13,842 bases of DNA from an uncultured Sulfurovum sp. (lineage in GTDB: Bacteria; Campylobacterota; Campylobacteria; Campylobacterales; Sulfurovaceae): the NCBI GenBank assembly GCA_902727915.1, contig CACVAU010000088.1, positions 1 through 13,842 on the forward strand, written 5' to 3'. A program made the position numbers and the translations under genes. Position 1 is the first letter of the stretch; the number at the start of each line of letters is the position of its first letter. Below the pieces are notes generated by a model that was given only the letters and a program-made list of their open reading frames with translations, had not been told where the DNA came from and made no database searches. Positions 11,903-13,842 of this stretch are shown piece after piece.

Positions 11903-13048
11903 TTATTGCTCATTTATTTTTTCCAAAGCAAGTTCAAAACCATTATCAGCTGATTGACGGTACCATAAAGCTTCTTCTTGTAATGCTTTGGCTTCATCTT
12001 CATTTTCCCATACATACCAAAAAGCCATAAGGTATTGCATAAACTTATCATTCCCTGTTGCTAAAGCATACACATTTTCTCGATTTTCATAAAGATAATC
12101 TTCTAAACTATCTGAAAAACCTTTTTCTTCAAAAGTGTTTAATATCTTAATAAAAAATATTTTGGATTTATCATTCATATTGATAATGGAAAGAGGAAGC
12201 GTAGGAAAAGAATCACTTGGTTCAAAAAAGGCACAAAAGACAGAAGCCAAATTATTACCTTCTTCAGCTGCCCTAGAGATTTCTTCTTGAAAGCTTATAA
12301 TCTTTTCTCTATTTTGAGGATTAATTTCCCCTGTAATAATGTCTTCTATCACATCACTGTATGCTTCCATTAAATCATTTACTTTTTCATCTGTGTACTT
12401 TTTAACACCCAGCTTCGTCTCTGCTACTTTGGGTTCTTCTTTATTTTTCTTAAAGGTATCTAATAGCTCTTGGATTTTATCATCAGCATATTCTAACTTC
12501 TCCATAATAACTGTTTTCATATTTTTCATAGAAAACTTTAATGCAGAACCTGTTCCAACTTTTTTTCCCAGACTAACGTCTTCGTTAATCTTTTCTTCGT
12601 TAACAAATGGTATGGCTTCTTTATCATATTTTCCAATCTCCCAATGCTTCATTACCCCATCAAGGATTCTCATGGCTGTTTGAAACATTATTATTTCATT
12701 GGCTATATTATTTAAAAAATTAAGAAAAAGAAGTTGAATTTTTTCTATCTCCTCACGTTCTTCTTCAAATTTTTCTAATGCACCTAAGTATTCAGCTGGA
12801 TGAAATCCACTGTTCTTCACAAAATCTTGACTCAAAGCATCTCCCTGCCGTGCCATATCTAACTCTTGTAAAACAAACTTTCTAGCCAACTCTTCTGAAA
12901 TAATTGTTTCATTTATTTGTTGAACAAGTTTTCCTTGTTCTCTTTTCAATCCATTAACATAAAGTTTATCCTCAAACTCTTGTTGTACTTTTGTACGTTT
13001 CATACATTGTAAAGTAGAACTAAAAAAATTAAGTGCTGTGTGTATCAT
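11903..13048 (-). CDS. Hypothetical helical protein with a C-terminal Sel1-like unit
   Basis: A 381-residue, highly charged, mostly helical soluble protein that I do not recognise. No signal peptide or transmembrane segment is evident; the N-terminus MIHTALNFFSSTLQ is mildly hydrophobic. Residues about 85-130 (YLGALEKFEEEREEIEKIQL and the following NNIANEIIMFQ) are likely coiled or helical-bundle. The middle (175-230) is lysine- and glutamate-rich. The C-terminus, about 350-380, reads EDEAKALQEEALWYRQSADN then GFELALEKI, like a single Sel1/TPR-type repeat (A-WYR-A---G---A). Start ATG 13048 has AAGGAA 5 nt upstream. Stands alone; no function is proposed. Confidence 0.7.
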   Translation of the reverse strand: MIHTALNFFSSTLQCMKRTKVQQEFEDKLYVNGLKREQGKLVQQINETIISEELARKFVLQELDMARQGDALSQDFVKNSGFHPAEYLGALEKFEEEREEIEKIQLLFLNFLNNIANEIIMFQTAMRILDGVMKHWEIGKYDKEAIPFVNEEKINEDVSLGKKVGTGSALKFSMKNMKTVIMEKLEYADDKIQELLDTFKKNKEEPKVAETKLGVKKYTDEKVNDLMEAYSDVIEDIITGEINPQNREKIISFQEEISRAAEEGNNLASVFCAFFEPSDSFPTLPLSIINMNDKSKIFFIKILNTFEEKGFSDSLEDYLYENRENVYALATGNDKFMQYLMAFWYVWENEDEAKALQEEALWYRQSADNGFELALEKINEQ

Positions 13049-13216
13049 TTCATTCCTTGAATGCTATATAGAAGATTATTCTTAGGCTATTATTTTATCT
13101 AAATGTTGTTTTATCTCTTTCTAAAAAGAAGTTATTGACGTTCATATTATCAATCCAAATATAAGGTAGCGACCCTTCCCTTTTTATTTTGGACTAAATA
13201 CGTCTAAAATATTCCC
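13049..13216. other. Gap upstream of the permuted tRNA region
   Basis: AT-rich, no gene seen. Minus-strand TATATA near 13070-13065 may serve the 381-residue gene. A small AAGG/CCTT hairpin at 13163-13177 is followed by a T-rich stretch, a weak plus-strand terminator-like shape. Confidence 0.3.
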
Positions 13217-13222
13217 TATAAT
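13217..13222 (+). promoter_or_regulatory. -10 box for the permuted tRNA transcript
   Basis: TATAAT preceded by ATTCCC; the predicted transcript start is about 13229 (GTGCC). It is the only good -10 box before the tRNA-like segment and points in its direction. Confidence 0.5.
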
Positions 13223-13228
13223 TCTCTT

Positions 13229-13560
13229 GTGCCAAGGTAGTTTTAGCACTACCTACTTGCATATTTACCTTGTAAATGATGTATGAGTAATGCACAGGAG
13301 TTCCATATTATAGGTCATAGGTTCGATTCCTGTCACATCATAAGATCTGTAGCTCAGAGGTAGAGCAATAGTATTCCAAAAAATCTTTAAAGATTCATGT
13401 TAAATGAAATGGACTTAAAACCCATCTTACAAAAATTTTATGAATGACAAGTACTAGGGCATAGGTCTTGTAGTTATTTGAAAAGCTTAGGAACGTTACT
13501 CTTTATGGAGGGTAGCAAAACTCAGTAGACCTTTTAACTCCACCTTGCTCCGTAATGTCA
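13229..13560 (+). ncRNA. Candidate structured non-coding RNA carrying a permuted tRNA
   Basis: A gene-free stretch starting at a predicted transcription start. Upstream of the tRNA halves: CTTGTGC (13226-13232) can pair with GCACAGG (13292-13298) and enclose hairpins AGGTAGT/ACTACCT (13235-13241 with 13248-13254) and ATTTAC/GTAAAT (13262-13267 with 13271-13276). Downstream: the palindrome AATCTTTAAAGATT (13382-13395), ATTCAT/ATGAAT, ACAAG/CTTGT (13447-13451 with 13467-13471), AGGTCT/AGACCT (13463-13468 with 13527-13532) and GGAG/CTCC (13507-13510 with 13538-13541). Several short pairings compete, so the fold is not determined. The 3' end is set only by the ribosome site of the next stub. I could not identify conserved group I or group II intron core sequences. 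Confidence 0.4.
13301..13378 (+). tRNA. Circularly permuted tRNA-like sequence, anticodon UCC (Gly) if joined
   Basis: The 3' half comes first: loop TTCCAT (13301-13306), anticodon 3' stem ATTAT (13307-13311), variable loop AGGTC, T arm ATAGG-TTCGATT-CCTGT (13317-13333), acceptor strand CACATCA (13334-13340), then T as base 73. The 5' half follows at once: AGATCTG (13343-13349), TA, D arm GCTC-AGAGGTA-GAGC (13352-13366), A26, anticodon stem ATAGT (13368-13372), loop ATTCCA. Joined at the shared TTCCA it is a 72-nt tRNA body with a 5-bp anticodon stem (one G-U), U33, UCC, A37, and the tertiary partners U8-A14, G15-C48, G18-G19. C35, C36 and U73 fit glycine identity. Weak points: the acceptor has two mismatches (A1-A72, C5-C68), and CACATCA pairs better with TGATGTA at 13277-13283. 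It could be a relic rather than a working gene. Confidence 0.5.
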
Positions 13561-13578
13561 TCATTCAAAGGAGAAAAA

Positions 13579-13725
13579 ATGTTTACAATTGATGTAAAAG
13601 AGAATGAAAAAGCGTTGCTTTATAAAGATAAAAAATTTATAGAGTTGTATAAAACGAGAGACACCCAAATATTTAGCTATCTCTACCTCAACAGATCATC
13701 CAAACCAATAACATTAATCCCATAA
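13579..13725 (+). pseudogene. 5' stub of a slipin/SPFH-like gene
   Basis: ATG 13579 follows a strong AAAGGAG site (13567-13573). The frame reads MFTIDVKENEKALLYKDKKF, then IELYKTRDTQIF, and ends at TAA 13725 after 48 codons. The opening (I-V-ENE-ALLYKD-KF) resembles the N-terminus of stomatin-like slipins, which are normally about 250 or more residues. From about residue 36 on, the frame runs antisense through the end of the PIN gene on the other strand, so the original gene has been replaced from about 13680 onward. The family call rests on a short pattern and is tentative. Confidence 0.45.
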
Positions 13726-13842
13726 CTACGCTTATGAATTCCCTTATCTTCGGTAACAAACACATCACATCCATTTTTAATAGCACACTGAATTTGTAAT
13801 AAATCTTCAAAATCTATCTTCTTCTTATCGACACAAGCCTCT
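13683..13842 (-). CDS. C-terminal part of a PIN-domain protein (toxin), runs off the window
   Basis: The minus-strand frame is open from the window edge and ends at TAG 13685-13683, giving 52 residues. It reads DFEDLLQIQCAIKNGCDVFV, TEDKGIHKRSYGINVIGLDD, LLR. The FEDLLQ acidic pair and the GCDVFVTEDKG strand with its acidic residues are the third and fourth active-site blocks of a PIN domain, the same layout as GLEDTIQY...CDLILSNDKGF in the toxin at 1360-1788. Most likely a second VapC-like toxin, with its N-terminus and any antitoxin to the right of the window. Confidence 0.75.
   Translation of the reverse strand, partial: EACVDKKKIDFEDLLQIQCAIKNGCDVFVTEDKGIHKRSYGINVIGLDDLLR

Follow-up and report, generated by a model that had tools for sequence, protein, structure and literature searches.

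The permuted tRNA-like element in this stretch of DNA is probably a module within a structured 5' leader RNA, of a kind that precedes slipin genes in neighbourhoods of the RNA-repair type. This reading was based on homology, covariation, closed helix ends and gene context, and the function that we propose for it was derived from anatomy and neighbouring genes. The stretch analysed, called the window here, comprises 13,842 nucleotides from an uncultured Sulfurovum sp. A first-pass annotation had described positions 13301..13378 as a circularly permuted tRNA-Gly(UCC)-like sequence. The leader, including its promoter-like part, spans about 13191 to 13578 and exceeds that interval. Its parts are given in Table 1.

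Table 1. Parts of the leader in the window and the slipin remnant behind it
Feature	Position	Strand	Basis
GGAC-N7-GTCT inverted repeat, probable operator	13191..13205	.	aligned with GGAC-N7-GTCC of other leaders
TATAAT box, just downstream of GGAC-N7-GTCT	13217-13222		aligned with TATAAT-like boxes of other leaders
5' hairpin AGGTAG / CTACCT, then conserved TACTTGCA	13235..13254	+	sequence; six-leader alignment
Conserved box GTATGAGTAATGCAC (relatives: GTATnAGnnTGCAC-like)	13281..13295	+	six-leader alignment
TTCCA repeat, two copies	13301-13305 and 13374-13378
tRNA-mimic module, permuted order (T arm, acceptor strands, D arm)	13307..13372	+	rotation, hand parsing, model from other genomes, sub-threshold YrlA match
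Anticodon strand ATTAT	13307-13311	+	read from sequence
T arm, 5/5 pairs	13317-13333	+	read from sequence
Acceptor strands, 5/6 pairs, one C.C mismatch, loop ATAA	13334-13339 and 13344-13349	+
D arm, 4/4 pairs	13352-13366	+	read from sequence
Anticodon strand ATAGT, 5/5 pairs with ATTAT, one G-U	13368-13372	+
Hairpin AATC-TTTAAA-GATT, probable acceptor-hairpin remnant of a second module missing its T arm	13382..13395	+	leader-alignment position; read by eye
Anticodon-arm-like hairpin ATGGA CTTAAAA CCCAT, 4/5 pairs, 7-nt loop	13409..13425	+
Distal leader domain, closed by ATGACA / TGTCAT	13444..13561	+	four-sequence alignment, consensus fold
Slipin (SPFH) gene remnant, 48 codons	13579..13725	+	match to L095 slipin N-terminus

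The letters and the order of the element were found to be as first described, with the 3' half of a tRNA directly before the 5' half and anticodon-stem strands that pair with each other. ARAGORN found no tRNA in the native window and called tRNA-Gly(tcc) once the halves were rotated at TTCCA, the rotation that the first-pass annotation had proposed. As a control, 55,056 rotated 74-nt segments were drawn from both window strands at every second position with four rotation points. Only 15 of these gave a tRNA call, seven at the element on the plus strand and eight at the same place on the reverse complement; no rotated segment elsewhere in the window gave one. Since all 15 calls fell at one place, the resemblance to a tRNA is not due to chance. 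The minimum-energy fold of the single sequence preferred other pairings over the module, with a z-score of only about -1, and Rfam 15 returned no family for the leader in the window at the gathering score. Three other candidates were rejected. A D-less linear cloverleaf, which pairs TGATGT (13277-13282) with ACATCA, was not seen by eye in L081, the sole leader checked; a group I intron permutation had no Rfam support in the window; and tmRNA, in one or two pieces, reached a covariance match of 7.7 bits against a gathering score of 47.

The gene behind the leaders encodes a slipin, a membrane protein with an SPFH/Band 7 domain (Pfam PF01145). At E 1e-25, slipin was found in 7 of 175 Sulfurovum-family genomes, and a more distant one was found in genome G453 (E 1.1e-56). 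Slipin matches were reported in 38 of 397 phylum genomes; those in the 37 besides G453 reached at best E 1.7e-21 and mostly cover the SPFH part only. Five distinct leaders of the family (L081, L083, L084, L085 and L086) were read together with L051, giving six independent leaders besides the window, a small sample. By blastn, the window leader matched L081 with 78.8 and 46.4 bits, L083 with 56.3 bits and L084 with 42.8 bits, compared with a best score of 30.1 bits in a dinucleotide-shuffle control (n = 300); no match to L085 or L086 was reported. The homology extends outside the tRNA-like part, as the promoter, the 5' hairpin and the distal domain also align. The leaders share the 5' hairpin, a GTATnAG box and a GGAC-N7-GTCC repeat that precedes a TATAAT-like box. 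The distal domain is common to the window, L081, L083 and L084, and its consensus fold, from these four sequences only, has two-sided changes in 17 of 36 predicted pairs.

Slipin searches in the family of G453 (1 of 150) and in control genomes gave no additional leader, and no slipin was found in phages. Slipin homologues number in the thousands, as 7,963 of 8,000 scored candidates passed E 1e-20. With the window leader as a nucleotide query, no match was obtained in plasmids and phages; in 183 of the 397 phylum genomes the same search gave short matches at E 0.1, which we judged by their length to stem from AT-rich sequence or D arms. An E. coli-like slipin is present on one viral contig, and an 18-base pattern from the distal domain matched two viral contigs, neither with a T arm. 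The slipin homologues P0004-P0006 and P0008 are 508 aa long, compared with the usual 370-375 aa; they may be extended at the N-terminus, or their frame may have been read into the leader.

Eleven modules, including that of the window, were parsed by hand. These counts omit L082, whose slipin is 98% the same as that of L081, L087, whose contig starts inside the gene, the first T arm of L085 with its hairpin, which lacks a D arm, and the first hairpin of L086, which lacks a T arm. The permuted order is kept in relatives, where the modules sit in slipin leaders of the Sulfurovum family and run from T arm through closed acceptor hairpin to D arm, with one to three per leader; five of the relatives' modules are also enclosed by paired anticodon strands. 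Acceptor strands paired at 67 of 68 positions within modules, compared with 39% across modules, and the sole unpaired position in the eleven modules was the C.C of the window. The anticodon stem of the six open-stem modules paired at all 31 positions, again compared with 39% across modules. Sequence differs in 10 of the 11 acceptor helices and in all six anticodon helices. Among the five non-window modules, two-sided changes were seen in 14 of 20 pairs, and the covariation score was 0.695 compared with 0.278 in shuffles, none of 500 being as high. When the partner strands were slid by one to three columns, pairing dropped from 96.9% to 32-44%.

In the relatives, the acceptor helix has 5-9 bp and is closed into a hairpin by a loop of 4-8 nt. 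A closed hairpin stood behind every T arm (11 of 11) of the six related leaders, compared with 4 of 91 T arms in ordinary tRNA arrays and 534 of 5400 flanks after shuffling; the one T arm of the window did not pass this strict test (0/1). All eleven D loops carry GG and all T loops read TTCGAnT, so the tRNA elbow should form, and the earlier remark that the elbow residues are preserved was right. Modules one and two of L083 are separated by only TTTA, and with a linker of 4 nt no anticodon loop can form there. A CCA after the 3' acceptor strand was encoded in none of the parsed modules. The last module in several leaders has a local anticodon-arm-like hairpin; hairpins similar to the one in the window were picked by eye in all six related leaders, and the loops differ (CTTCCCA, TTTTGGA, TTTTGGT, CTGCTAA, CTTAAAA in the window and CATCAA, of six bases, in L083). 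These sequences indicate that the modules are end-closed, anticodon-less tRNA mimics.

A covariance model, R1, was built from five modules of other genomes with the window excluded. The window module scored 59.7 bits (E 4.5e-13), above all matches listed from the 397 phylum genomes except G453. Of the top phylum matches, nine besides G453 were scanned and all were ordinary tRNA arrays; the G453 leader was without a tRNA on scan. Tandem tRNA junctions in the tRNA-array loci searched with R1 reached at most 55.0 bits, and the margin between them and the module is narrow.

Judging by its sequence, the window copy looks like a relic, a decaying member of the family. An intact downstream slipin is a family feature, and the window has the 48-codon frame instead. 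Residues 1-32 of this remnant match the N-terminus of the L095 slipin with 50% identity, and residues 33-40 weakly match L095 positions 149-156 (E 0.023), a pattern compatible with an internal deletion. The second window module lacks a T arm, and the first has the only broken acceptor pair of the parsed modules. The truncated slipin, the lost T arm and the broken acceptor pair together fit recent decay; the decayed relic that had been left open is borne out as a possibility by the C.C mismatch and the short frame.

Other genes of the window include a toxin-antitoxin cluster on the minus strand (317-822, 1047-1316 and 1360-2017), with a YoeB toxin (PF06769), a Phd/YefM antitoxin, a RelB antitoxin, a PIN-domain protein and a weakly matching partner. 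At 13683-13842 on the minus strand, directly behind the slipin remnant, lies the C-terminal end of a frame that is PIN/VapC-like by eye and had no Pfam or NCBIfam match at 1e-3. The 381-aa protein encoded at 11903-13048, also on the minus strand, is without a Pfam or NCBIfam match and was found in 9 of 175 Sulfurovum-family genomes.

Slipin, WYL, RtcB, PrfH-like, RlaP and RtcR proteins near the leaders were identified by Pfam. In L093, a helix-turn-helix/WYL/WCX regulator comes after the slipin; on the opposite flank are RtcB and a PrfH-like gene with an RF-1 domain. The same regulator is present in L095 and, by its sequence start only, in L094; in L096 it precedes the leader, with RtcB further along. 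Neither RtcB nor WYL was found among the listed ORFs of L097, L098 and L099, of which nine proteins were scanned. RtcB was seen in only 2 of the 7 campylobacterote loci fetched; in 2 more (L094 and L095) the contig ends at or near the leader. We infer that the GGAC-N7-GTCT repeat of the window may be used as a WYL-regulator site.

Look-alikes of tRNA also front related genes in distant bacteria, including E. coli. SPFH matches in the plasmid collection came from 28 records, and nine were full-length slipins, from E. coli (2), Citrobacter, Burkholderia (4), Photobacterium and Subdoligranulum. A T-arm-like hairpin with at least 4 of 5 pairs was found within 700 nt before the start codon in 9/9, compared with 8 of 2700 shuffles and with 3 of 338 stretches of 700 nt taken elsewhere in these loci. 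A closed hairpin follows the T arm in four of the nine (both E. coli, Citrobacter and Subdoligranulum), with differing sequences (ATTCATT/AATGAAT, TTTCAT/ATGAAA and TACATCC/GGATGTA), and none was found at the 10 T arms of the four Burkholderia and the Photobacterium. The mimics of these two genera resemble linear cloverleafs. In L090 and L091, ARAGORN reported tRNA-like cloverleafs without a valid anticodon and one tRNA-Met-like sequence, in L091. RtcR adjoins the slipin in six of the nine (L089, L090, L091, L100, L101 and L104), RtcB was present in all three loci scanned for it (L090, L091 and L100) and RlaP in L088, L089, L103 and L104. In all, RtcR, RtcB or RlaP lies beside 8/9 full-length slipins, where the neighbour scans excluded L102, the second E. 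coli record. The E. coli leader occurs in 1,624 of 5,426 complete E. coli genomes, so this version can be tested by ordinary genetics. E. coli TUM12355, without the slipin gene, has kept 256 nt from the start of the leader stretch used as query (L106, 4001-4257), and a nucleotidyltransferase gene starts directly behind the retained part. An annotated zeta-toxin family gene (L105, 7309-8235) adjoins the E. coli pair of slipin and nucleotidyltransferase.

From the anatomy of the modules and their neighbours, we propose that each module would copy the tRNA elbow together with the acceptor arm, with the T and D loops retained and a short loop closing the acceptor helix in place of the CCA end. The anticodon stem would open into the neighbouring RNA without an anticodon loop, which would make the order appear circularly permuted. 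A damage-sensing regulator, a WYL protein in Sulfurovum relatives and RtcR in several proteobacteria, would open the operon, and the leader RNA would be made. The mimics might then occupy tRNA-elbow-binding proteins or tRNA-cleaving enzymes as a decoy. Alternatively, they might serve as a scaffold by which tRNA-like RNA is delivered to slipin, RtcB or RlaP. A role as tRNA decoy or scaffold in an RNA-damage response seems likely. In published accounts, RtcR responds to tRNA fragments (PMC7790460, PMC11090510), PrfH-RtcB and RlaP are interpreted as counter-RNase repair systems (PMC6514570), the P. aeruginosa rtc locus includes a slipin (PMC13086221) and YrlA is proposed to be a competitive inhibitor of an anticodon nuclease (PMC7790460).

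The mimics and the distal domain could instead control slipin transcription or translation purely in cis, with no trans role. All 16 leaders examined have their modules between promoter-like sequence and slipin start codon, and the conserved distal domain lies just before the ribosome-binding site, both of which speak for a cis-acting leader. Against this, a leader may carry one, two or three modules, and these may be permuted or linear; such variation is better suited to cargo than to a switch. We regard a purely cis-acting leader as rather unlikely, while still a serious competitor. A decoy or scaffold acting in trans appears more likely because of the published context of YrlA, RtcR, PrfH-RtcB/RlaP and slipin.

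We suggest, tentatively and with somewhat more doubt than belief, that these leaders belong to a widespread and undescribed bacterial RNA class. It would consist of strings of end-closed, anticodon-less tRNA mimics before the slipins of RNA-repair operons, induced by RNA damage; toxins that cleave tRNA would meet them as decoys or bait, and repair enzymes would use them as handles. The mimics would be permuted in Campylobacterota, enterobacteria and a Clostridium relative, and linear in Burkholderia and Photobacterium. The literature that we searched gave no account of tRNA-like RNAs in slipin or RtcR-slipin leaders; an older description is possible. Slipins in RNA-repair operons are not known to have a job, and what RtcB and RlaP act on in bacteria is still under debate. 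A tRNA mimic that fronts repair operons would provide a concrete handle on what slipin, RtcB and RlaP recognise.

If the element were a canonical Y RNA (YrlA), it would bind a Ro60/Rsr protein. In an Rfam scan by E-value, 13283-13393 matched the full YrlA model (RF02553) with 40.6 bits (E 2.3e-7) and the relatives scored 28.5-42.6 bits, all of which are below the gathering score of 69. The family has the YrlA layout of T arm, closed acceptor and D arm, with one acceptor pair broken in the window. An AAUGC at the place of the Rsr-binding basal stem aligns to the model, and the relatives show a different conserved box. Across ten loci, the E-value scan of the leaders yielded only sub-threshold YrlA matches and some tRNA matches. 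At E 0.01, YrlA matches were found in 106 of 149 relatives and also in 9 of 14 control genomes, and on reading, the fetched loci were mostly ordinary tandem tRNA junctions. Such junctions score 30-45 bits with the model, and a YrlA hit below threshold is therefore unreliable unless its context is known. Among 30 of these loci (L004-L032 plus L002; L003 and L030 were without a pattern match), those read as lying outside tRNA arrays were L005, L011 and L012, which had no tRNA by ARAGORN and all lead the same kind of gene. Ro60/TROVE was found in none of 7 carrier genomes and none of 149 relatives, a set that does not contain the window's own genome. A canonical YrlA is thus very improbable, and a module of a slipin leader remains the preferred reading.

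The proposal of a permuted tRNA-Gly gene fared worse, and we consider it highly unlikely. It draws on the tRNA-Gly call after rotation, on RtcB neighbours in L093 and L096 and on the short intervening sequences (1-74 bp) of known permuted genes (PMC3978253). A join within TTCCA, which was said to restore a 7-nt loop, is possible in the window, but the repeat is absent from five homologous open modules. The closed acceptors of the relatives, with helices that range from 5 to 9 bp, the mismatched acceptor of the window, the lack of CCA, the 4-nt linker in L083 and the setting in slipin leaders all stand against such a gene. Known permuted genes are joined at BHB motifs, according to the same source, and none was seen here by eye. 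Least probable of all, to the point that we set it aside, is a tandem-array remnant made of the fused ends of two truncated ordinary tRNA genes: the YrlA matches in relatives are mostly tandem tRNA junctions and such junctions score up to 55 bits with R1, but ARAGORN found no tRNA in or beside the leaders, and the two halves pair with each other through their acceptor and anticodon strands and covary, as unrelated tRNAs would not. Tandem tRNA junctions and slipin leaders can both imitate permuted-tRNA and YrlA hits, so bacterial hits of either kind need context.

Several known systems resemble the proposed leader modules in part. Permuted tRNA genes of algae and archaea, as described in PMC3978253, also place the 3' half first with a short stretch between the acceptor strands and are joined at BHB motifs; unlike these, the relatives studied here have no restorable anticodon loop, CCA or visible BHB junction. 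In the Anabaena TrcR regulon, rtcB, the slipin alr0740 and a 26-tRNA array share a repressor and are co-regulated (PMC10272220). The tRNA genes form a separate locus there, whereas the tRNA mimics here are in the slipin leader. The Salmonella rsr-yrlBA-rtcBA locus with RtcR also encodes RNA-repair genes together with a tRNA-like RNA (PMC7790460); in contrast, the Sulfurovum relatives have a slipin after the RNA, WYL in place of RtcR and no Rsr. Salmonella YrlA is described as a tRNA mimic encoded beside RNA-repair genes (PMC8394870, PMC7790460), whose tRNA-like domain is modified by DusA and TruB (PMC8394870). YrlA and the modules have in common a T arm, an acceptor hairpin closed by a short loop and a D arm, in the same order. 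They differ in that the modules have no Ro60/TROVE partner (7/7 carriers), occur several to one RNA, form part of a slipin leader and score below the YrlA cut-off. The slipin-leader mimics are akin to the Y-RNA-like tRNA mimics, a type that is already known.
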